DNA from: Clostridia bacterium
GTDB taxonomy: Bacteria > Bacillota > Clostridia > Christensenellales > Aristaeellaceae
NCBI GenBank assembly: GCA_017524615.1
Contig: JAFXVJ010000052.1
Location: 1-44,049 of the forward strand
Reading direction: 5' to 3'
DNA: 44,049 nucleotides
Both the position numbers and the translations under genes were made by a program. Shown here in pieces: positions 3,206 through 18,290 of this stretch (its first letter is position 1; each line of letters starts with the position of its first letter). Under the pieces are notes generated by a model, which was not told the DNA's origin, did not search any database, and was given only the letters and a program-made list of their open reading frames with translations.

Positions 3206-3637
3206 TCATGTCTTCTGGCCCGCCATCCATTCCAGCGCCTTGCCGTAGCCCTCAAAGCCCATCCCAATGAAATGCGCCTGGCAGGCCATACCGGCATAGC
3301 TCACCTGCCGAAAAGGCTCCCTTTGGGAAATATCGGTCAAGTGCACCTCGGCGGCGGGCAGGCTGACGGCCTTCAGCGCGTCCAGGATGGCCACGGAGGT
3401 GTGGGTATAAGCGGCGGGATTGATGATAATGCCGTCCGCCTGGCCGTAGGCCTGCTGTATTCTGTCCACCAGCGCGCCTTCATGGTTGCTCTGGAAGATT
3501 TCCACGTCGATCCCCAGCGCCGTGGCCCGCTCCCGGATATAAGCCGTCAAATCCTCATAGGTCTGATTTCCGTACAGATGCTTTTCACGAATGCCCAACA
3601 TGTTCAGATTGGGCCCGTTCATCACAAGCACACGCAT
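3206..3637 (-). CDS. aroQ: 3-dehydroquinate dehydratase, type II
   Basis: Converts 3-dehydroquinate to 3-dehydroshikimate, the third step of the shikimate pathway, as a small dodecameric cytosolic enzyme. The 143-residue length is typical of type II enzymes. Motifs seen: NGPNLNMLGIRE near the N-terminus with YG (catalytic Tyr in HLYGNQTYEDL), FQSNHEGALVD, INPAAYTHTSVAI and EVHLTDISQREPFR. The start at 3637 follows GGAGGG by 5 bases. It overlaps the 3' end of the aroE-aroK fusion gene by 53 bases, so the two are probably translationally linked. Confidence 0.96.
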   Translation of the reverse strand: MRVLVMNGPNLNMLGIREKHLYGNQTYEDLTAYIRERATALGIDVEIFQSNHEGALVDRIQQAYGQADGIIINPAAYTHTSVAILDALKAVSLPAAEVHLTDISQREPFRQVSYAGMACQAHFIGMGFEGYGKALEWMAGQKT

Positions 3638-4856
3638 CGAATCCCTCCAGTATCCGTTCCAGCGCCTGCTGAGGCGCCGCGTCGTTCTGCACGTCAAAGT
3701 CCGCCGCTGCGCGGTACAGGGGCGTCCGCTGCTGCTCCATGCGCAGCAGCGCTTCCCTGTCGGCGGACAGCGGGCGGCCTTCCATGTTCAATTGCTCCGC
3801 AGGACGGCGGATCCACGCCACCACGGCGTTTTGCCGCAGCGCCCGCACATTTTCCTTCCGCAGCACGGCCCCGCCCCCGGTGGCGATCACCAGCGCGCTC
3901 TCCCGTCCAAACCGGCGGACGGTCTGGCTTTCCATATCCCGGAAAGCCGCCTCCCCCTGCCGGGCAAATATCGCCGGGATGGGGCCCTGGGTTTTCTCGA
4001 TCTCCGCGTCCAGATCCACGAATTGTCTGCCCAGCCGCTCCGCTGCCAACCGTCCCAGGGTGGATTTTCCGCTGCCAGGCATGCCCACCAGCACCAAGTT
4101 CAGCGTTTGCCGCCGCACCGCGCGATACGCCAGGGCCAATCGGTCCTCCGGGATATCCCGGCCCAGAAACAGCCGGGCGGCGTACCACCCCTGGGCCGCC
4201 AGCATCCACAAGCCGCCCGCGCAGGGAATGCCTCTTTCCTCTGCGTCCATCAGCAGCGCCGTGCGGGCGGGGTTATAAATCACATCCGCCACGCCGGAGA
4301 GGCGCGAAAAGCGGCCCAAATCCACCGGCGACGCCAGATTGTTTGGGTACATGCCCACCGGCGTCGCATTGATGAGCACGTCTGCATCGGTGTGGCGCGC
4401 ATACAGATCGTCATAAGTCACCTGTCCATGCCGCGACACCACCACCGCTTCCCTCGCCTGCCTCGCCCGACAGGCGGCCTGGGCAGTGAGGGAGGTGCCG
4501 CCGCTGCCCAGAATAACCGCCTTTTTCCCGGCAAGGGCGATGCCCGCCCGGTCCAGCATGAGCAAAAAGCCGGACAGGTCGGTGTTATAAGCCGTCAGCC
4601 TGCCGTCCCGCATGACCAGGGTGTTGGCGCTGCCCACCGCCCGTGCGGTATCGGATATTTCATCGCACAGGGGCAGCACCGCCTGCTTATAGGGGATGGT
4701 CACGTTCAGGCCCCGGAACTGCCGGGAGCGCACCAGCGCTTCCATATCCTGCCGGGAAAGAGGGCAAAGCCGATAATCATAGTCCCCGAAGCACCGGTGG
4801 ATCTGTGGGGAAAAGCTGTGGCCCAGCTTTTCCCCGATGAGCCCAAATTCCATCAT
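3585..4856 (-). CDS. aroEK: Bifunctional shikimate dehydrogenase / shikimate kinase (AroE-AroK fusion)
   Basis: A 423-residue fusion of two consecutive shikimate-pathway enzymes. Residues 1-245 are shikimate dehydrogenase: NVTIPYK with catalytic Lys57, NTD with Asp93, NADP-binding GSGGTS at 117-122, and INATPVGM. Residues 250-410 are shikimate kinase: P-loop GMPGSGKST at 258-266, DLD near 281, the intact glycine triplet ATGGGA near 325-330, and the RPL lid near 361. The last 20 residues (DACACDERAQSEH) are an extra tail not needed by either enzyme and coincide with the overlap into aroQ. The ATG overlaps the pheA stop in an ATGA junction. The fusion would couple dehydroshikimate reduction to phosphorylation. 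Confidence 0.95.
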   Translation of the reverse strand: MMEFGLIGEKLGHSFSPQIHRCFGDYDYRLCPLSRQDMEALVRSRQFRGLNVTIPYKQAVLPLCDEISDTARAVGSANTLVMRDGRLTAYNTDLSGFLLMLDRAGIALAGKKAVILGSGGTSLTAQAACRARQAREAVVVSRHGQVTYDDLYARHTDADVLINATPVGMYPNNLASPVDLGRFSRLSGVADVIYNPARTALLMDAEERGIPCAGGLWMLAAQGWYAARLFLGRDIPEDRLALAYRAVRRQTLNLVLVGMPGSGKSTLGRLAAERLGRQFVDLDAEIEKTQGPIPAIFARQGEAAFRDMESQTVRRFGRESALVIATGGGAVLRKENVRALRQNAVVAWIRRPAEQLNMEGRPLSADREALLRMEQQRTPLYRAAADFDVQNDAAPQQALERILEGFDACACDERAQSEHVGHS

Positions 4857-6001
4857 CGCATTTCCTCATAATTGCCCAGAAAAACGAACTGATCCGATTC
4901 GTTTTTCAGCTGGCCGATCAGCGCCCGCACATTAGGATCCAGAATGGACGCTTCAATATCGAAAAAGAAGCGGAATTCAAAATCCTTGCCGGGAATGGGG
5001 CGGCTTTCCAGTTTGGTCAGGTTCAGATCCATCACGGAAATATGGCTCAGCAGCCGGTACAGCGATCCAGGCCGATGGGCGGCGCTGAGCATGAGAGAAA
5101 TCTTGTTGGCCCCCGCATACACCTCCAGATCCTTGGCGATGCAGATGAACCGGGTGGAATTGCTGCTGATATCGCTGACCGCATCGGAGAGGGATTCCAG
5201 GCCGTAAAGCTGCTCACATTCCCGGGACGCAATGGCTGCCAGATCCCTGCGGCCGGACTTTGCCACCCAAGCCGCCGACACGGCGGTGTTTTCCATGGGA
5301 GTCGCCTTGATTTGCGGATGTGCCGCCAGGAACGCGCCGCATTGGCGCAGCGCCTGTTCGTGCGACACCACTTCCCGGATTTCCTGGATCTTCGCGCCGG
5401 GCAGAGCCAGCAGCCTGTGCTCAATCCGCTGGCGGGCAGCCTTGACGATGTGGAAGTGATGCTTCTCCATCAAATCATACACCTGGGTCACCGATCCGGC
5501 CGTGCTGTTTTCAATGGGCAGCACGCCGTAGGGGCACATGCCTTTTTCCACGGCGCTGAATACGTCGTTAAAGGTGTTCATGTACAGAATATCGGCAAAT
5601 TCAAACATTTGATCGCAGATCTTCTGGGAATAAGCCCCCTCCGTGCCCTGGCAGGCCACCAGGGCACGCCGGGGCATTTGGGGACGCACATTCCGGGCCG
5701 CCCGCTCCAGCTCTTCAGCCAGCGCAGAGGGGACCTGAAGCCGCTCTGCCTGATAGGCGCGGCTGACGTTGAACAGCGTCTGATACAGCAGCTTGGCATA
5801 GCGCTCCATATCCTCCCCCGCTGCCAGGGTCACCCGGTTCATGATCTGCCGCTCCCGTCCCGTATCCAGAATGGGCACGCCGTTCTGCTTTTTGTATGCG
5901 GCAACATCCGCCACCAGGCGCATGCGCCGGGTAAATAATTGGATCAGCTGATCGTCAATTTGATCCAATTGACTCCGGATCCCGTTCAAATCCATATCCA
6001 T
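4853..6001 (-). CDS. pheA: Chorismate mutase / prephenate dehydratase (P-protein)
   Basis: Bifunctional enzyme taking chorismate to prephenate and then phenylpyruvate, the committed branch to phenylalanine. The 382 residues divide into an AroH-like chorismate mutase (1-90; LDQIDDQLIQLFTRRM, then DTGREREIM-like DTGRERQIM), prephenate dehydratase (about 112-290; GTEGAYS, PIENSTAGSV, catalytic NSTRF at 281-285), and a C-terminal ACT regulatory domain (about 300-378) with ESRP at 332-335, the usual phenylalanine-binding motif. Feedback inhibition by Phe is therefore expected. AAGGAG lies 8 bases before the ATG. It sits 12 bases after aroC and overlaps aroEK by 4 bases. Confidence 0.96.
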   Translation of the reverse strand: MDMDLNGIRSQLDQIDDQLIQLFTRRMRLVADVAAYKKQNGVPILDTGRERQIMNRVTLAAGEDMERYAKLLYQTLFNVSRAYQAERLQVPSALAEELERAARNVRPQMPRRALVACQGTEGAYSQKICDQMFEFADILYMNTFNDVFSAVEKGMCPYGVLPIENSTAGSVTQVYDLMEKHHFHIVKAARQRIEHRLLALPGAKIQEIREVVSHEQALRQCGAFLAAHPQIKATPMENTAVSAAWVAKSGRRDLAAIASRECEQLYGLESLSDAVSDISSNSTRFICIAKDLEVYAGANKISLMLSAAHRPGSLYRLLSHISVMDLNLTKLESRPIPGKDFEFRFFFDIEASILDPNVRALIGQLKNESDQFVFLGNYEEMR

Positions 6002-6013
6002 GGCTTACGCTCC

Positions 6014-7075
6014 TTATACAATCAAATCGGTCAGCGCCAGGGCCGTGACCGCCTCTGTCACGGGCACCGCCCGGGGCACCACACAGGGATCGTGACGGCC
6101 CCGGAGAAGCAGCGTGGTCTCCTCCATTGTTTCCAAATCCACCGTCTGCTGCGGCTGAGAAATGGAAGGAGTGGGCTTCAGGGAAACGGTGAAATACACC
6201 GGCATGCCGTTGGATATGCCCCCCAGGATGCCACCGCAGTGATTGGTGGCTGCGGTGGGCAGACCGTTTTCCAGGCGGTAGGGGTCGTTGTTCAGGCTGC
6301 CCCGGGGCTGCGTGTCCCCAAATTGAACGCCCTTCACCGCGGGAATGCCGAACAGCGCCTGGGCCAGCTTTCCTTCCAGTCCGCCGAAATAGGGCCCGCC
6401 CACCTGGCCCGGCTTGAGCCCCAGCACGAAGCAGCGCACCGCGCCGTCCACGCTGTCCCCCGCCTGACGCGCGGCGTCAATTTCCCGCTTCATTTTTTCG
6501 CCCTGGTCCGCGTTGATCACCGGGAACGCGCCGTCCGCGTAAAAAGGCAGATGCGGATGAACGGGATCCGGCACGTCGTCCAGGATGTCCCCCACCCTCG
6601 CAATGTGGGCGGCGACGCGGATGCCATACCGCTCCAATTCCTGGACGCACAGCGCGCCGGCCAAGCACAGGGCGGCTGTGAGCCGGGCGGAAAAATGGCC
6701 CCCGCCACGGCAGTCCCATGCGCCGCCATATTTGAAATCCGCCGCGAAATCGGCATGGCCGGGACGCGGCGTACGGGTCAGATCGGGATAATCCCCGGAA
6801 TGGGCGTCGGTGTTCCGGATCAGGAAGGTCAGCGGCGCGCCGCAGGTGAAGCCGTCCTTGCTCAGTCCGCTCAGGGTTTCAAAACCGTCCGTTTCCTTCC
6901 GCCGGGTGCTCCAGGCGTTTTGTCCCGGCGCCCGACGCGCCATGAACGCCCGCACCCGCTCCCAGTCCACAGACCGGCCGGCCGGATACCCCTCGATCAC
7001 GCAGCCCACCGCCGGGCCGTGGGACTGGCCGAACAGGGTCACGCGGAGCTTGTCCCCCACGGTGAAATCAGGCAT
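6014..7075 (-). CDS. aroC: Chorismate synthase
   Basis: Final step of the common pathway: reduced-FMN-dependent 1,4-elimination of phosphate from EPSP to give chorismate. The 353-residue protein shows FGQSHGPAVG, TPRPGHADFAADFKYG, GGGHFSARLTA, and the C-terminal RHDPCVVPRAVPV signature. The start at 7075 (MPDFTVGDKLRVT) follows GGGAGGA; the open frame extends 8 codons further upstream without family similarity. It overlaps the end of aroA by 8 bases, consistent with one transcript and coupled translation. Confidence 0.96.
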   Translation of the reverse strand: MPDFTVGDKLRVTLFGQSHGPAVGCVIEGYPAGRSVDWERVRAFMARRAPGQNAWSTRRKETDGFETLSGLSKDGFTCGAPLTFLIRNTDAHSGDYPDLTRTPRPGHADFAADFKYGGAWDCRGGGHFSARLTAALCLAGALCVQELERYGIRVAAHIARVGDILDDVPDPVHPHLPFYADGAFPVINADQGEKMKREIDAARQAGDSVDGAVRCFVLGLKPGQVGGPYFGGLEGKLAQALFGIPAVKGVQFGDTQPRGSLNNDPYRLENGLPTAATNHCGGILGGISNGMPVYFTVSLKPTPSISQPQQTVDLETMEETTLLLRGRHDPCVVPRAVPVTEAVTALALTDLIV

Positions 7076-8297
7076 GGGTCTGTCCTCCCAACGCTTCAAA
7101 GTCTTTCCAGAATCCGGGATAGGATTTGTTCACCGCTTCCGCACCCAGAATCGTCACCGGTCCGGAGCAGGCAGTGGCGGCGATGGCGGCGCTCATCACC
7201 ACCCGATGGTCGCCCTTTCCATCCACCGTGCCGGCGTTCAGCCTTTTCCCGTGGATGATCAGCCCGTCCGGTTTTTCCTCCGTTTCTCCGCCCAGGGCGC
7301 GGATGGCCTCCGCCATAGCGGCCAGCCGGTCCGATTCCTTGAGCCGCAGGCGCGCGGCCCCGGTAATGCGCGTGGTTTTTCCCAGAACAGCCGCCGCGGC
7401 AGCGGCCAGAATGGGCATCAGGTCCGGCGTGTCGGCCACATCGATCTCCCCGCCGATTTGATCCAGCAGCTTTTCGATGGCCTTGTCCCCCTGGCAGGAA
7501 TGCCCGTTCAGGCCCGTCACCGACACCGCGCTCCCCAGCCTGTTGGCTCCCAGCCAAAAGGCGGCGGCGCTCCAATCTCCTTCCGCTTCCACCGTGCCGG
7601 GAGAATGATACGTCTGGCCGCCCGGCACGCGCCATCCGTTTTCCATCGGCTCCACCCGAAGGCCGAACTGCCGCAGTACGGAAAGGGTCAAATCCACATA
7701 GGGCATGGATTCCAGGGGGGCGGTATACCGCAGGGTGCTGTCCCCGCTCAAAAGCGGCAGGGCGAAGAGCAGGCCGGAAAAATACTGGCTGCTCACGTTC
7801 CCCGGCAGGGCAAAATCCCCGGCCGACAGGCCGCCCTCTGCCGTGAGGGGCAGGAATTCCCCCTGAATCTGGGCTCCATGAGCGCGCAGCACGTCCAAAA
7901 GGGGGCCGTTGGGACGGCTGGGCAGGCGGCCCGAACCGGTCAGAATAACGGCGTGCTTCGCGGGATGATCCAGCGGCTTCGCGGCGCACAGGGGCAGCAG
8001 GAACCGCAGGGTGGAGCCGCTTTCCCCGCAATCCAATATCCCGCGGGGCTGAAAAAAGTGCATGGGGCCGTCCCGGCCGACATGGAGCCAATCGCGTTCT
8101 TTGAAGATCTCTGTATTCAACGCGGAAAGGCAGCGGACGGTGGCGGCGATATCCTCGTTTTCCCCCGGGCAATGGATGTGCGTATGCACGCCCCCGCAGC
8201 ACAGGGCGGCGGCGATCAGCAGCCGATGCACGTGGGACTTGGAGGGCGGAGCCTGTACCGTTCCCCGGATGCGAGATGGATAAACCGTCACATTCAT
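7068..8297 (-). CDS. aroA: 3-phosphoshikimate 1-carboxyvinyltransferase (EPSP synthase)
   Basis: Transfers enolpyruvyl from PEP to shikimate-3-phosphate. The 409-residue protein begins VYPSRIRGTVQAPPSKSHVHR, containing the conserved PPSKS loop, and shows GESGSTLRFLLPL, QYFSGLLFALPL, EGDWSAAAFWLGAN, and LRLKESDRLAAMAEAI. The start at 8297 is supported by GGGAG upstream and an ATGA overlap with the end of aroB. The glyphosate-contact region LDCGESGSTLRF differs from the plant/enteric GNAGTAMRPL class and looks like the class II (Bacillus-type) form; I infer lower glyphosate sensitivity only weakly from this. Confidence 0.95.
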   Translation of the reverse strand: MNVTVYPSRIRGTVQAPPSKSHVHRLLIAAALCCGGVHTHIHCPGENEDIAATVRCLSALNTEIFKERDWLHVGRDGPMHFFQPRGILDCGESGSTLRFLLPLCAAKPLDHPAKHAVILTGSGRLPSRPNGPLLDVLRAHGAQIQGEFLPLTAEGGLSAGDFALPGNVSSQYFSGLLFALPLLSGDSTLRYTAPLESMPYVDLTLSVLRQFGLRVEPMENGWRVPGGQTYHSPGTVEAEGDWSAAAFWLGANRLGSAVSVTGLNGHSCQGDKAIEKLLDQIGGEIDVADTPDLMPILAAAAAAVLGKTTRITGAARLRLKESDRLAAMAEAIRALGGETEEKPDGLIIHGKRLNAGTVDGKGDHRVVMSAAIAATACSGPVTILGAEAVNKSYPGFWKDFEALGGQTHA

Positions 8298-9337
8298 GGT
8301 GTTTCTCCCGTTCCCCTGGCAAAATACCCGGGCAGCTCCTTGATATCGATCGTTTGCAGCCGGCATTTTCCAATTGCCTCCGGCAGCACCAGGGTGATTT
8401 TTCCGCCCCGCCGTTTTTTATCGTGCAGCGCCGCCGAAGCCAGCCTGTCCGCCGGATAGGGGGACGTCACCGGCAGGCCGCAGGCCGCGCAGGCGCTTTC
8501 AATCCCGACTGCATCCATCCCCGCCGCCCGGGCCGCCATCACCAGACCGATGGCCACGCCCTGGCCGTGGGTCAGGACAAAGCCGGAGCACTTCTCCACC
8601 GCGTGGCCGAAGGTATGGCCCAGGTTCAGGAATTGCCGTCTGCCCATGTCCCGTTCGTCTGCCATCACATAATCCCGCTTGATGGCCACGCAGCGGGCGA
8701 TGGTCTTTTCCATTTCGTTTTTCCACGCGCCGGACCGCATCGCCTCAAACAGCGCCGGATCATCCAGGATGCCGTATTTCAGCATTTCTGCGGAACCGTC
8801 CCGGATCAGCTCGTCGGGCAGGGCTGCCATCACGTCCGTATCGCAAATCACCATTTCCGGCTGGTGAAAGGCACCCGCCATGTTTTTGCCGCCCCGGAGA
8901 TCAACGGCCGTTTTGCCGCCCACGGAGGAATCCACCGCCGCCAGCAGGGTGGTGGGGACCTGCACAAAACGCATCCCGCGCCCAAACACCGCCGCGGCAA
9001 AGCCCGCCAAATCCCCCGGCACGCCGCCCCCCAGGGCCACCACCAAATCGGACCGGGAAATCTCCATGGCGCACAGCCATTCCAGCGCCTGGGCCAGGGT
9101 ATCCATGGTTTTGTGCTGTTCGCCATGGGGAAAGGCCCACAGGCAGGGGGAAAAGCCCGCCGCCCGCAGGCTGTGCTGTACCGCATTTCCGTACAGCCCC
9201 GCCACGGTGTCATCGGTGATCACGGCGGCTTTGCAGGGCTTCACCGCCCGAGCGGCCATTTCGCCCACCCGGGCCAGCAGCCCCGGGCCGATCAGCACAT
9301 CATATTCCCCGGACGCTTTGATATGTACCCGTTCCAT
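8294..9337 (-). CDS. aroB: 3-dehydroquinate synthase
   Basis: NAD- and zinc-dependent cyclisation of DAHP to 3-dehydroquinate, the second step of the pathway. The 347-residue product has the NAD-binding ALGGGVPGDLAGF (GGG at 103-105), QVPTTLLAAVDSSVGGKTAVD, the metal-site Glu in AEMLKYG (about 184), and the histidines of NLGHTFGHAVE (about 241 and 245) and THGQGVAIG (257). The start at 9337 follows GGAGG by 7 bases and lies 2 bases after the tyrA stop. The open frame reaches further upstream inside tyrA, which is not used. Confidence 0.96.
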   Translation of the reverse strand: MERVHIKASGEYDVLIGPGLLARVGEMAARAVKPCKAAVITDDTVAGLYGNAVQHSLRAAGFSPCLWAFPHGEQHKTMDTLAQALEWLCAMEISRSDLVVALGGGVPGDLAGFAAAVFGRGMRFVQVPTTLLAAVDSSVGGKTAVDLRGGKNMAGAFHQPEMVICDTDVMAALPDELIRDGSAEMLKYGILDDPALFEAMRSGAWKNEMEKTIARCVAIKRDYVMADERDMGRRQFLNLGHTFGHAVEKCSGFVLTHGQGVAIGLVMAARAAGMDAVGIESACAACGLPVTSPYPADRLASAALHDKKRRGGKITLVLPEAIGKCRLQTIDIKELPGYFARGTGETP

Positions 9338-9339
9338 GG

Positions 9340-10173
9340 TCAATCCTCCAGCGCTTCCTTGATCTCCCGGCCTTCCCTGAGCAATTGCCGCAGCCGCGCT
9401 TCGTCCCGATCCCGCAAGGCGTCCCGATATTCCGTCAGCCGGTCGATCAGGTGCTGGATCTGATCCAGAAGCAAATCGTCGTTTTCCAGAAACAATTCTG
9501 TCCACATGGTTTCATTCAGCCGGGCCACCCTCGTCATATCCCGAAAGCTGCCTGCGGAAAAGCCCTTATGTTGGGTTGCCAGGGGCGTTTTCACATAAGC
9601 GCTGGATACCACGTGGGCCAGTTGGGAAGTGAAGGCGATCATTTCGTCGTGCTCCCGGGGCGTGGTGAACCGCACCCGGCCAAAGCCGATGGACAGGAAG
9701 ATTTCCTTGGCCCGCCGGATGGTTTCGATATCCGTTCCGGGGGCGGGGGCCAGGATCATGGAGGCGTTTTCAAACAAATCGTCCTGGGCGAAGGAAAAGC
9801 CGCTGCGCTCCCGGCCCGCCATGGGATGGCCGCCTATAAAGGTGAAGGCCGTGCCCTGAAACGCGGGAAACAGCCGGTCGCATACGTACCGCTTCACCCC
9901 GCAGCAGTCGATCACCAGCGCGCCGGGCATGAACCGATCCTTGCGGGCCAGCGCCCATTCCACCGCTGCCTGGGGATACAGGGCGATCAACACCACATCG
10001 CAGCTCTCCAGGATTTCATCGGTCAATTCCCCGTCAATGGCCTTCACCATTTTGGCCTGCAGCAGCGCCGTTTCGCTGAGATCCGTCCCGTACACGGTAT
10101 TGTCCGAATGGAATTTGATGCTCCGGGCCAGGGACCCGCCGATCAGCCCCAGACCCACGATGCCGAAAACCAT
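9340..10173 (-). CDS. tyrA: Prephenate dehydrogenase
   Basis: NAD(P)-dependent oxidative decarboxylation of prephenate to 4-hydroxyphenylpyruvate, the committed tyrosine branch. The 277-residue protein opens with the Rossmann motif GIVGLGLIGGSLA (4-16) and has IGGHPMAGRERSGF, with the catalytic His, and AFTSQLAHVVSSAYV. There is no chorismate mutase domain and no ACT domain after the catalytic core, so feedback control must act elsewhere (the ribosomal attenuator and DAHP synthase are candidates). AAGGAGGA precedes the ATG. It lies 16 bases after the HIT gene and 2 bases before aroB. Confidence 0.95.
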   Translation of the reverse strand: MVFGIVGLGLIGGSLARSIKFHSDNTVYGTDLSETALLQAKMVKAIDGELTDEILESCDVVLIALYPQAAVEWALARKDRFMPGALVIDCCGVKRYVCDRLFPAFQGTAFTFIGGHPMAGRERSGFSFAQDDLFENASMILAPAPGTDIETIRRAKEIFLSIGFGRVRFTTPREHDEMIAFTSQLAHVVSSAYVKTPLATQHKGFSAGSFRDMTRVARLNETMWTELFLENDDLLLDQIQHLIDRLTEYRDALRDRDEARLRQLLREGREIKEALED

Positions 10174-10189
10174 GGAGATACTCCTCCTT

Positions 10190-10603
10190 TCATCCGAGCT
10201 CGCGGATTCTCACTTGCTCATAGACTTCACGGATTTCCTTTTTCGCGCCTTCAAAGCGCGGCCAGGCGTCGATCCCGTCGCTGGGCTTTCTTGGAATGAC
10301 GTGGATATGGAAATGGGGAACGGACTGGCCTGCGCTTTCATCGCTGGCGTTGAGCAGATTGACCCCGGAGTAGCCGCATTTTTCCGTTAAGTGCCGGGAA
10401 ACCAGCTGCACGGTGCGCATGACGGCGTCCAGGACGTCCGGAGCGCAGTCCAGGATGTTTTTGCAATGCCATTTGGGCAGGACCAGGATATGCCCGTCCA
10501 CGTCTTTTGCAATGTCCATGATGGAGACCGTTTCCTCATCCTCATAGACCTTCAGGCCGGGGATTTCGCCCGCGGCGATCCTGCAAAAAACACAATCTTC
10601 CAT
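10190..10603 (-). CDS. HIT family nucleotide hydrolase/transferase
   Basis: Histidine-triad protein of 137 residues, probably a purine nucleoside phosphoramidase or dinucleotide hydrolase of the Hint/Fhit type. The catalytic triad HFHIHVIPR places His at 97, 99 and 101. CVFC at the N-terminus with a later His suggests the structural zinc site of Hint-like proteins. GGAGG precedes the ATG. It is embedded between aroF (60 bases upstream) and tyrA (16 bases downstream) in the aromatic operon. I know of no required role in aromatic synthesis; co-transcription may be incidental or may link it to aminoacyl-adenylate turnover, which is speculation. Confidence 0.93.
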   Translation of the reverse strand: MEDCVFCRIAAGEIPGLKVYEDEETVSIMDIAKDVDGHILVLPKWHCKNILDCAPDVLDAVMRTVQLVSRHLTEKCGYSGVNLLNASDESAGQSVPHFHIHVIPRKPSDGIDAWPRFEGAKKEIREVYEQVRIRELG

Positions 10604-10663: not shown

Positions 10664-11671
10664 TTACCTGCACGCATAGGGTCGGATGGCGAATACGCAT
10701 TTCGCCACGTCGTCAAAGGCGTCGGGCGTCAGGCTCTGCGCGCCGTCGGAGAGGGCGTGGGGCGGATCGTTGTGCACCTCGATCATCAGGCCGTCCGCCC
10801 CGGCGGCGGCGGCGGCGACGGCCATGGGCTTGACCAGATAGGAATAGCCCGTGGCGTGGCTGGGATCTACGATGACGGGCAGATGGGTCAGCCGATGCAG
10901 CACCGGCACGGCGGACAAATCCAGCGTGTTGCGGGTGGCGGTTTCATAGGTGCGGATGCCCCGCTCGCACAGGATTACATTGTTATTGCCACCGGCCATG
11001 ATGTATTCCGCGCTCATCAGCCACTCCTGGATGGTGTTGGCCAGGCCGCGCTTCAGGAGGATGGGCTTGCGGATCTGGCCCAATTCTTTGAGCAGCTCAA
11101 AATTCTGCATGTTCCGGGCGCCCACCTGAATCACGTCCACCTCCTCGAACAGCGGCAGGTGGTTCACATCCATGATCTCCGTCACGACGGGCAGCCCCGT
11201 TTCCTTTTTCGCCAGCAGCAGCAATCGGATCCCTTCTTCATGCAGGCCCTGGAAGGCGTAGGGCGAGGTGCGGGGCTTGAACGCGCCGCCCCGCAGCAGC
11301 TTGGCGCCCGCTGCCTTCACGCGCTTGGCCACATACACGATCTGCTTCTCCGATTCCACGGAGCAGGGCCCGGCAATGATTTCAAAATGGCCCCCGCCTA
11401 TTGCCACACCGGGCGCGATCTGCACCACCGTGTCGTCGGCATGGAATTTGCGGTTGGCGTTCTTGTAAGGCTCCTGCACCCGCTGCACGTTTTCCACGAT
11501 CTCCAGGGACTTGATCACATCAATGTCCAGGCGGCTGGTATCACCGATCAGGCCCATAATGGTCTGTGTGGCGCCGACCGAGGTGTGAATATCAAAGCCC
11601 ATGGATTTGAGCCAGCCCCTCAGGTTTTCCACTTGTTTTTCATCGGCGTTTTGCTTAAGCAGAATGATCAT
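10664..11671 (-). CDS. aroF: 3-deoxy-7-phosphoheptulonate (DAHP) synthase, N-terminal regulatory-domain type
   Basis: Condenses PEP and erythrose-4-phosphate, the entry reaction of the shikimate pathway. The 335 residues comprise a ferredoxin-like N-terminal domain (1-70), as in the Thermotoga-type AroF, and a TIM-barrel catalytic domain of the KDO8P-synthase-like class I-beta family: [10 protein letters not shown] with the metal Cys at 103, [42 protein letters not shown], and IVDPSHATG. Such N-terminal domains commonly mediate Tyr and/or Phe feedback inhibition. GGGAGGA precedes the ATG. It is the first structural gene of the aro operon, directly behind the predicted attenuator. Confidence 0.96.
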
Positions 11672-11708: not shown

Positions 11709-11743
11709 AAAAAAGGCTTTGCGGTGGCATGTACCGCAAAGCC
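11709..11743 (-). terminator. Intrinsic terminator of the aro leader (attenuator 3:4 hairpin)
   Basis: On the minus strand GGCTTTGCGGT (11743-11733) pairs perfectly with ACCGCAAAGCC (11725-11715) across a 7-base loop, followed by six U residues (11714-11709). This is a textbook Rho-independent terminator placed before aroF and after a short leader reading frame. Confidence 0.9.
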
Positions 11744-11764
11744 CCTGACCTCAGATCAAAAACT

Positions 11765-11842
11765 TTACATGCGGCGGCATGCCTTGCCGGACAAGCCGGT
11801 AAAGCGATCATAATATTCGTAAGCCGCCCGTACAGTCCGCAT
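11765..11842 (-). CDS. Aromatic leader peptide (25 aa, Tyr-rich)
   Basis: A 25-codon frame starts with ATG at 11842, 9 bases after AGGAGG, and ends at a TAA immediately before the terminator hairpin. It contains AYEYYDRF at positions 7-14: three Tyr and one Phe within seven codons, then a basic end (GKACRRM). In-frame ATGs at 11851 and 11860 are alternatives but sit too close to the ribosome binding site. Size, location, and clustering of Tyr/Phe codons before a terminator and before DAHP synthase point to an attenuator leader peptide rather than a functional protein. Confidence 0.75.
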   Translation of the reverse strand: MRTVRAAYEYYDRFTGLSGKACRRM

Positions 11843-11877
11843 GCAAAGCATCCTCCTCATTGCCTGTTTGCGTATTC

Positions 11878-11907
11878 AGCATATCACACCCGCTTGTTCG
11901 CGGTCAA
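11878..11907 (-). promoter_or_regulatory. Promoter of the aro operon leader
   Basis: TTGACC (11907-11902), an 18-base spacer, and TATGCT (11883-11878) on the minus strand, about 20 bases before the leader ribosome binding site. Position fits a transcript starting just upstream of the leader peptide. Confidence 0.65.
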
Positions 11908-11939: not shown

Positions 11940-12449
11940 TTACTGGATGCTCTCCACCAGATCGGTCAGGTTTTTTGCCCCGACGATGAAGCCCTTGGAG
12001 TTGTCCAGCCGATAGTCTGCCGCCGCCCGGTAATGGCCGATGCAGCGGTTGTACTGGTCGATCACATCCTCATGGGAGCCGCCGGCCAGCAGCGGCCGCC
12101 GGTCGGTTTTGATATCGGACAGGATCTGATCCAGGGGCCGGTCGATATGGATGATGATGCCGTGGTTTTTCATGATGGTCACGTTCTCCGAAAAGGTGCA
12201 CAGTTCCCCGCCCGTGCTGACCACGCACGGAGGCTGGCCCACCAATTCGATCAGCACGCCCGTTTCCGCGTTGCGGAACAGCGGTTCCCCGAAGGAGGCG
12301 AAAATCTCATTGACCGTCATGCCCATCAGCTCGCACACCCGCTGATCGGTATCCACAAAATTCCAATTCAGATTTTGCGCCAAGCGACGGCCCAGGCTTG
12401 TTTTTCCAGCGCCCGCCATTCCCACCAGGAAAATATGCATATTCAGCAT
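11940..12449 (-). CDS. Second shikimate-kinase-like P-loop protein
   Basis: A 169-residue NMP-kinase-fold protein of the shikimate kinase family. P-loop GMAGAGKTS lies at 10-18; VDTD gives Asp33 and Asp35; GEPLFRNAE carries Arg59; the lid region is TDRRPLL near 116-121. The glycine triplet that binds shikimate (normally GGG) reads STGGE at 78-82, with Glu replacing the third glycine, whereas the kinase half of the AroE-AroK fusion keeps GGG. It may be a redundant kinase or have diverged to another substrate. The ATG at 12449 follows GAGGGGGG by 7 bases. It precedes aroF by about 270 bases but is separated by the aro promoter and attenuator. Confidence 0.85.
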   Translation of the reverse strand: MLNMHIFLVGMAGAGKTSLGRRLAQNLNWNFVDTDQRVCELMGMTVNEIFASFGEPLFRNAETGVLIELVGQPPCVVSTGGELCTFSENVTIMKNHGIIIHIDRPLDQILSDIKTDRRPLLAGGSHEDVIDQYNRCIGHYRAAADYRLDNSKGFIVGAKNLTDLVESIQ

Positions 12450-18039: not shown

Positions 18040-18082
18040 AAAAAACACGGGCCATCCCTCCCGAAGGACGGATCGGCCCGTG
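18040..18082 (-). terminator. T-box terminator hairpin
   Basis: CACGGGCC and GGCCCGTG are the arms, with an inner GATCC/GGATG-type stem and TTCGGG loop, followed by six U. The 5' arm overlaps the T-box core, as needed for terminator/antiterminator switching. Confidence 0.88.
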
Positions 18083-18290
18083 GTACCACCTTGCTTCACG
18101 GCAAAATCGCTTTTGCCGCCTCTTTCCGCTGTAATGGGCGAACCCAGGCGAACTACGCTGTCGTTCATCCGCCGTCCTCCCGGGCGACCTTCCGCTTCGC
18201 TTTCCCCGACAGCCTTTCAGCCGATGAGCCGTCTCTCTTTTGGGGAGCTTCAGCGTACTCCTCCCGTTCTTTGGACACCTTTGTATGAAA
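18040..18290 (-). promoter_or_regulatory. T-box leader of valS (tRNA-Val sensing)
   Basis: The invariant T-box core AAGGTGGTACCACGGG lies at 18092-18077 on the minus strand, immediately followed by a terminator. Upstream, AGAGAG plus a CGGCTGAAAG distal-loop-like element and a GGGAG/CTCCC base mark Stem I. A GUC valine codon at 18188-18186 in GGAAGGTCGCC is the likely specifier, which agrees with the downstream valS. Uncharged tRNA-Val would stabilise the antiterminator. About 240 bases separate the terminator from the valS start, with no convincing gene in them. Confidence 0.88.

Follow-up and report, generated by a model that had tools for sequence, protein, structure and literature searches.

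What controls the genes for aromatic amino acid synthesis in Clostridia? The question is raised by a short region in front of aroF in a Clostridia bacterium (Aristaeellaceae; GCA_017524615.1, contig JAFXVJ010000052.1). The window, meaning the whole stretch of DNA that was analysed, is 44,049 nt long, and the leader lies on its minus strand at 11907–11709. Ribosome-mediated attenuators are classical in Proteobacteria, in the trp, phe and his operons. T-box leaders sense tRNA charging by binding the tRNA directly and have no leader peptide. A preliminary description of the window had proposed an attenuator of the trp/phe type here. Our analysis agrees: the Tyr/Phe codons, the terminator, the antiterminator and, class-wide, the protector pairing are conserved or stand above shuffles. 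Judged by its parts, their conservation and their pairings, the leader is very probably a tyrosine-responsive ribosome-mediated transcription attenuator of the aroF operon; folding predicts the switch itself.

Results and discussion

The leader region and its operon

The leader contains the following elements, numbered as segments 1 to 4 in the order of transcription.

11878–11907, minus strand: sigma-70-like promoter read from the sequence, TTGACC-18-TATGCT with an extended -10 TG (-35 at 11907–11902, -10 at 11883–11878)
11852–11857, minus strand: Shine-Dalgarno AGGAGG of the leader frame, read from the sequence
11765–11842, minus strand: leader peptide frame MRTVRAAYEYYDRFTGLSGKACRRM, 25 codons (ATG at 11842, TAA at 11767–11765; Tyr at codons 8, 10 and 11, Phe at codon 14)
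11837–11849, minus strand: start codon region, segment 1 of the preliminary description, pairing with 11774–11762 in this species
11823–11827, minus strand: GCGGC, proposed here as the core of segment 1, 6 to 2 nt before the first Tyr codon
11768–11783, minus strand: segment 2, GGCATGCCGCCGCATG, the frame end and 5′ arm of the antiterminator (sequence, folding and alignment of relatives)
11739–11765, minus strand: inner hairpin of the antiterminator, AAGTTTTTGATC / TGA / GGTCAGGGGCTT, its 3′ arm extending into segment 3 (MFE folds of 20 relatives)
11726–11746, minus strand: segment 3, the 3′ arm of the antiterminator, whose first 14 nt (11746–11733) are the 5′ arm of the terminator
11709–11725, minus strand: segment 4 and T tract, forming the intrinsic terminator with segment 3

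The promoter and the 25-codon Tyr/Phe frame are present on the minus strand where they were first described. The promoter motif occurs once in the leader region, against 0.3 times on average in shuffles, and the relatives carry similar hexamers as judged by eye. The complementarity reported between the start and the end of the frame is also found: GCTTTGCATGCGG forms 13 pairs with CCGCATGTAAAGT, two of them G-U. The second claimed pairing, of the frame end with the 5′ arm of the terminator, turns out to be stronger than described. Segment 2 and the stretch 3′ of the stop codon make up one long antiterminator hairpin, with a folding energy of -27.9 kcal/mol in the window. The intrinsic terminator (11746–11712) has 14 pairs, a loop of 7 and an energy of -21 kcal/mol, and its T tract runs to 11709. 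As had been noted, a DAHP synthase gene follows it; 37 nt separate the end of the terminator from the start of aroF at 11671.

The genes downstream are identified below, by family matches unless stated otherwise.

10664–11671, minus strand: aroF, DAHP synthase (DAHP_synth_Bsub type), first gene of the operon
10190–10603, minus strand: HinT-like histidine-triad protein, between aroF and tyrA
9340–10173, minus strand: tyrA, prephenate dehydrogenase
8294–9505, minus strand: aroB, 3-dehydroquinate synthase; the family match covers the protein from residue 68 onward, the true start probably lying close to 9304
7068–8366, minus strand: aroA, EPSP synthase, from the gene identification in the window
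6014–7099, minus strand: aroC, chorismate synthase
4853–6001, minus strand: pheA, chorismate mutase - prephenate dehydratase
3585–4856, minus strand: aroE-aroK fusion, shikimate dehydrogenase - shikimate kinase, last gene of the operon

The leader thus heads a shikimate operon, as the preliminary description had it, with aroF, hinT, tyrA, aroB, aroA, aroC, pheA and the aroE-aroK fusion in order. By its gene content the operon covers much of the common pathway and both the Tyr and the Phe branches. We note that shikimate kinase is encoded twice on the minus strand, in the fusion (3585–4856) and in a stand-alone gene (11940–12446) just upstream of the leader promoter.

Conservation of the Tyr and Phe codons

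Leaders were sought at 110 aroF loci, namely the best 30 of 51 places in whole genomes and the best 80 of 585 places in public contigs, with a few genomes present twice. A leader was defined as a frame that lies no more than 350 nt from aroF and has a Shine-Dalgarno match of 4 nt or longer, and its densest eight residues were scored for Tyr and Phe (strict threshold at least 5, looser threshold at least 4). The leader in the window has four Tyr/Phe in eight residues. That score is reached by 162 of 2200 shuffled upstream regions (about 7%), so this leader is weak evidence when taken singly and conservation has to settle the matter. Frames with at least five Tyr/Phe in eight residues precede aroF at 81 of the 110 loci (best 30 of 51 and best 80 of 585), against 0/110 reverse strands and 25/2200 shuffles. 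Of the 29 genomes of the genus, 24 contain a close match to DAHP synthase, truncated in one of them by the end of a contig; another genome gives a weak match and the remaining four give none. At the 24 close loci a leader is present in every case at the looser threshold and in 20 at the strict one. A scan of 20 of the 23 loci that score below 4 found no known RNA family at any of them.

Three duplicates (L032, L040 and L049) were removed before the structure, switch-model, codon-count and terminator-control sets were drawn up, which gave 84 leaders, 83 of them for structure. The codons of 83 leaders comprise 374 Phe, 307 Tyr and 5 Trp among 2101 residues, and the densest eight residues hold Tyr and Phe together in 81/83. 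Between relatives, Tyr and Phe codons swap for each other. In five relatives (L006, L007, L009, L013 and L014) the frame ends before segment 2 and the segment-2 DNA is kept; segment 2 therefore appears to be retained as RNA and not as peptide.

Three observations concern single loci. At L031 the aroF gene is 87% identical to that of the window, another gene lies upstream and the leader is absent, which may reflect loss or rearrangement of the control region. L069, on a contig labelled Treponema, has aroF, the leader MKGNFYYSAYYYYSYYATGKGSK and a terminator; it is either a transfer or a mis-binned clostridial contig. L007 and L009 carry a repeat-rich insert between terminator and aroF (GTAGGAGGTAGGAAG in L007 and GTGAGGAGTTAGGAG in L009, with matching inverted stretches).

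Terminator and antiterminator

A hairpin resembling an intrinsic terminator follows 83 of the 84 leaders. Permissive detection finds a hairpin of any energy in 272/420 shuffles, and it is thus the energy-graded counts that should be trusted: 81/84 leaders against 42/420 shuffles at -12 kcal/mol or better, and 50/84 against 2/420 at -20 kcal/mol. In 20 close relatives 99.1% of cells in the terminator stem are paired and 5 of its 11 pairs have changed on both sides, a result matched by none of 500 shuffles.

This covariation, taken with the codon data, bears on the idea that the frame encodes a conserved small protein with a role of its own and that the terminator merely ends the transcript of the upstream shikimate kinase. 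In favour of this idea, the ribosome site of the frame is good, its composition is conserved, and the end of the kinase gene, at 11940, lies some 200 nt upstream of the terminator. Against this, a promoter-like site lies between the kinase gene and the leader, the terminator covaries, Tyr and Phe codons interchange, and the five shortened frames stop ahead of segment 2 with the DNA retained. We consider such a small protein very unlikely.

Control of translation, with the leader governing initiation at aroF by re-initiation or through a hidden ribosome site, would be consistent with leader and aroF probably sharing one transcript. It is made highly improbable by the second hairpin, which has a T tract ending 37 nt before aroF, and by L007 and L009, where the leader is 100–150 nt further from aroF than in the other relatives. 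Transcription attenuation remains our preferred reading.

The antiterminator is found in all 20 relatives as an MFE fold with 9 to 15 core pairs. Its inner hairpin has at least six pairs in 19/20, and the sequence of this hairpin varies between them. The 2:3 pairing (11783–11768 with segment 3) is formed in 93.6% of cells. Column shuffles reach its covariation score in 20/500 and its both-sided pairs in 170/500; they reject 2:3 weakly because the pairing varies little among these 20 close relatives. Across the class, a permutation test of own against foreign partners gave large values for 1:2 and 2:3. We rejected this test as evidence since such values can be obtained from base composition and clade structure, and preferred shuffles within each locus with 1:3 and 2:4 as controls. 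Over 83 loci these give a mean z of -1.57 for 2:3 (p ≤ 0.05 in 28/83) and of -1.26 for 1:2 (27/83), against +0.35 for 1:3 (0/83) and -0.27 for 2:4 (10/83). The 2:4 control, being somewhat below shuffles, is not quite clean.

The cores of segments 1, 2 and 3 read mostly GCGGC/GCCGC/GCGGT in the genus and often GCAGC/GCTGC/GCAGT elsewhere in the class. With motifs fixed, the middle base is Watson-Crick in 30/31 cases for 1:2 and in 35/41 for 2:3, where three are wobble and three mismatched. We regard this agreement as supporting and not decisive, because all four motifs occur in only 15/83 loci and the split mostly follows one clade.

Proposed location of segment 1

The preliminary description had placed segment 1 at codons 1-2. 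The resulting stem is strong in this species, and across 20 relatives it is paired in 60.8% of cells, against 31.9–49.6% for slid versions; we rejected codons 1-2 as a conserved protector. The description had named loss of the Tyr codons or of the alternative stems in relatives as a refutation; the relatives keep the Tyr codons and both the 2:3 and the 3:4 stem, and 1:2 as originally placed is not conserved. A better candidate for segment 1, as judged from the sequences, is the GCGGC core that immediately precedes the first Tyr codon. This core pairs with segment 2 in 91% of cells in the 20 relatives, with genus-level covariation absent and the sequence GCGGC itself present in most; since the repeat is GCGGCGGC, the core slid by three columns still pairs in 88%. 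The description had also cautioned that segment 1 lies at the edge of the footprint of a ribosome stalled at Tyr8. If the GCGGC core is segment 1 this caution falls away, because the core is well inside the footprint assumed for that stall.

A model of the switch

The leader was folded with ribosomes at defined positions, each assumed to shield the RNA from -18 to +12 relative to the A-site codon. In the window's leader, at the stage when segment 4 is still to be transcribed, a ribosome stalled at Tyr8 is predicted to give the full antiterminator. A stall at Tyr10 or Tyr11 gives the inner part of the antiterminator with other pairing, and a stall at Phe14 gives 1:2 instead of the antiterminator. 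A ribosome at the stop codon allows neither the full antiterminator nor its inner part; the inner part also forms when there is no ribosome. Segment 3 is paired at 0.97 in the stalled state, 0.65 at the stop and, at an intermediate value, 0.83 with no ribosome. The switch relies on co-transcriptional timing, because the full-length MFE structure for the window holds the terminator in all six ribosome states tried.

The same calculation over 83 loci, again before segment 4, gives segment 3 an average pairing of 0.73 when the first aromatic codon stalls the ribosome, of 0.54 when the ribosome is at the stop and of 0.61 when there is none. The modelled stalled value exceeds the stop value at 72/83 loci; at 11/83, L020 and L086 for example, it does not. 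The mean difference of 0.19 compares with 0.05 when the between-region is shuffled once per locus (p 3e-8). With the assumed footprint, segment 2 overlaps a ribosome at the stop codon at 73/83 loci.

The mechanism that we propose is as follows. RNA polymerase would leave the promoter at 11907–11878 and a ribosome would start on the leader frame. Under tyrosine shortage the ribosome would be held at Tyr8, with segment 1 hidden beneath its footprint (assumed to span about codons 2-12) and segment 2 exposed. Segment 2 could then form the 2:3 antiterminator before segment 4 is made, and the polymerase would continue through aroF-hinT-tyrA-aroB-aroA-aroC-pheA-aroE/K. With ample tyrosine, translation would run to the stop codon, where the ribosome would occupy segment 2; 3:4 would form and transcription would end at 11709. 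On a transcript with no ribosome, 1:2 could form.

Sensing of both Tyr and Phe had been suggested for this leader. The folding bears out the tyrosine half of the suggestion, the Tyr8 stall being predicted to antiterminate. It does not bear out the other half: the one Phe codon of the frame is codon 14, and a ribosome stalled there is predicted to leave the antiterminator unformed, so that this species should sense mainly tyrosine. Relatives whose clusters combine Tyr with Phe may sense both.

A simpler switch would have two states and no protector. Only 2:3 and 3:4 would matter, the ribosome would act by covering segment 2 at the stop, and an untranslated leader would read through. This would accommodate the poor conservation of the 1:2 stem as first placed and the lack of genus covariation in the GCGGC:GCCGC core, as well as segment 3 remaining paired with no ribosome (0.61 on average, 0.83 in the window). 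It sits less well with the class-wide 1:2 pairing, which is above shuffles at 27/83 loci (p ≤ 0.05) against 0/83 for the 1:3 control, and with the transcripts lacking a ribosome, in which segment 3 is paired less than in the stalled state at 69/83 loci. We judge the two-state version rather unlikely, though it deserves to be taken seriously, and retain the attenuator with a putative protector.

Distribution in Clostridia and relation to T-boxes

For the class we used an even sample of 89 genomes including that of the window, 64 of them with an aroF match. After 11 rows were left out (short pieces, or matches starting after residue 60), which removed genomes G130 and G143, the survey comprised 85 aroF places in 61 genomes besides the window's, every one of which was also scanned against Rfam. 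A leader is found at 25 of these places, a T-box at 13 and, by these criteria, neither at 47. The reverse strands in the survey gave no leader score of 5 or more. The raw leader count (score at least 5) was 27/85; L200 and L207 were removed as their frames overlap the 3′ end of a T-box. We have taken these two to be false leader calls, and the statement that leader and T-box never occur at one place depends on that decision. Cultured species with the leader include Oscillibacter valericigenes, Anaerotignum neopropionicum, Yanshouia hominis and Angelakisella massiliensis.

The occurrence of T-boxes before aroF in the class (13/85) raises the question of whether the window's leader is itself a T-box, or another ligand-binding riboswitch, which the short frame overlaps by chance. 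Its genome has 15 T-box matches, one of them before pheS. At the leader, the T-box candidate was rejected, as the family model (RF00230) is not matched there. No Rfam family is above its cut-off at the leader, and extending the search to an E value of 10 gives four eukaryotic-type matches far below theirs. We give a riboswitch of this kind next to no chance, and continue to read the leader as an attenuator. The T-box that had been reported before valS is present in the window at 18061–18280 (minus strand), and of the genome's 15 matches it is the only one above the Rfam cut-off. Besides the one at pheS, the others include T-boxes ahead of alaS-, serS-, metG-, ileS-, thrS-, hisS-, proS- and cysE-like genes, the -like names being assigned by eye. 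The two kinds of sensor, leader peptide and T-box, thus coexist in one cell.

A covariance model of the leader gave 21 strong matches, of which 20 are its own training sequences. The sole new one, in G014, is directly before tyrA-aroB in a genome that has no DAHP synthase match. This suggests that the leader goes with the operon and not just with aroF. At this locus (L221, G014:C45), aroF and the HinT gene are absent between the leader and tyrA-aroB; the genome is rated 92% complete. Weak matches include non-training leaders before aroF in G024, G012 and G029, and others fall on the opposite strand of the terminator. One weak match lies next to a metG-like gene, on its 3′ side (L222).

Comparison with known systems

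In the literature that we searched, we found no description of a clostridial Tyr/Phe aroF leader. It appears to be an unreported version, within that literature, of a known mechanism, and an unusually widespread one. We lean towards the broader view that these leaders form a class-wide, uncatalogued family of Tyr/Phe attenuators that is a main controller of aromatic operons in Clostridia, interchangeable with T-boxes at one and the same gene, and that ribosomes pace the polymerase at least over the leaders. One consideration counts against a leader switch. PMC13323073 classes Bacillota at phylum level as runaway transcribers whose ribosomes lag, crediting this to Johnson et al. 2020, and control by a ribosome needs it close behind RNA polymerase. 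If our reading holds, the leaders offer a direct test of transcription-translation coupling outside Bacilli.

One comparison at the same gene is uORFC-13-1 (PMC8632094), a predicted aroF attenuator with 24 representatives from Acholeplasma and environmental sequences. It shares with the present leader a small reading frame that includes Phe codons, a terminator ahead of aroF and the prediction of attenuation. It is set apart by a frame with one or more Phe codons, in contrast to the clusters of Tyr and Phe across Clostridia.

Other attenuators are on record in Bacillota. Rli60 of Listeria monocytogenes is an experimentally supported ribosome-mediated attenuator of ilv genes (PMC5864092), and the leucine-rich ilv leader of Staphylococcus aureus is reported, with experimental support, to use the same mechanism (PMC5794164); both, unlike the present leader, concern branched-chain amino acids and Bacilli. 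Attenuators of his genes have been predicted by comparison in the Bacillus cereus group, Peptostreptococcaceae and Erysipelotrichales (PMC9413887, PMC2965389). They too have leader peptides, but control histidine genes and are described from few species.

In architecture the clostridial leader resembles the trp, phe and his attenuators of Proteobacteria, with control codons for the end product, the alternative 2:3 and 3:4 pairings and a putative 1:2, a terminator and the first biosynthetic gene. It differs from them in mixing Tyr and Phe codons and in a segment 2 that overlaps or follows the stop codon at most loci. If our reading is correct, Clostridia control aromatic amino acid synthesis by the same logic as the trp and phe operons of Escherichia coli. 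T-box leaders take the same position before aroF in other Clostridia, with no T-box match at the window's leader. The family lends itself naturally to comparing a leader peptide with a T-box as sensors for a single gene.
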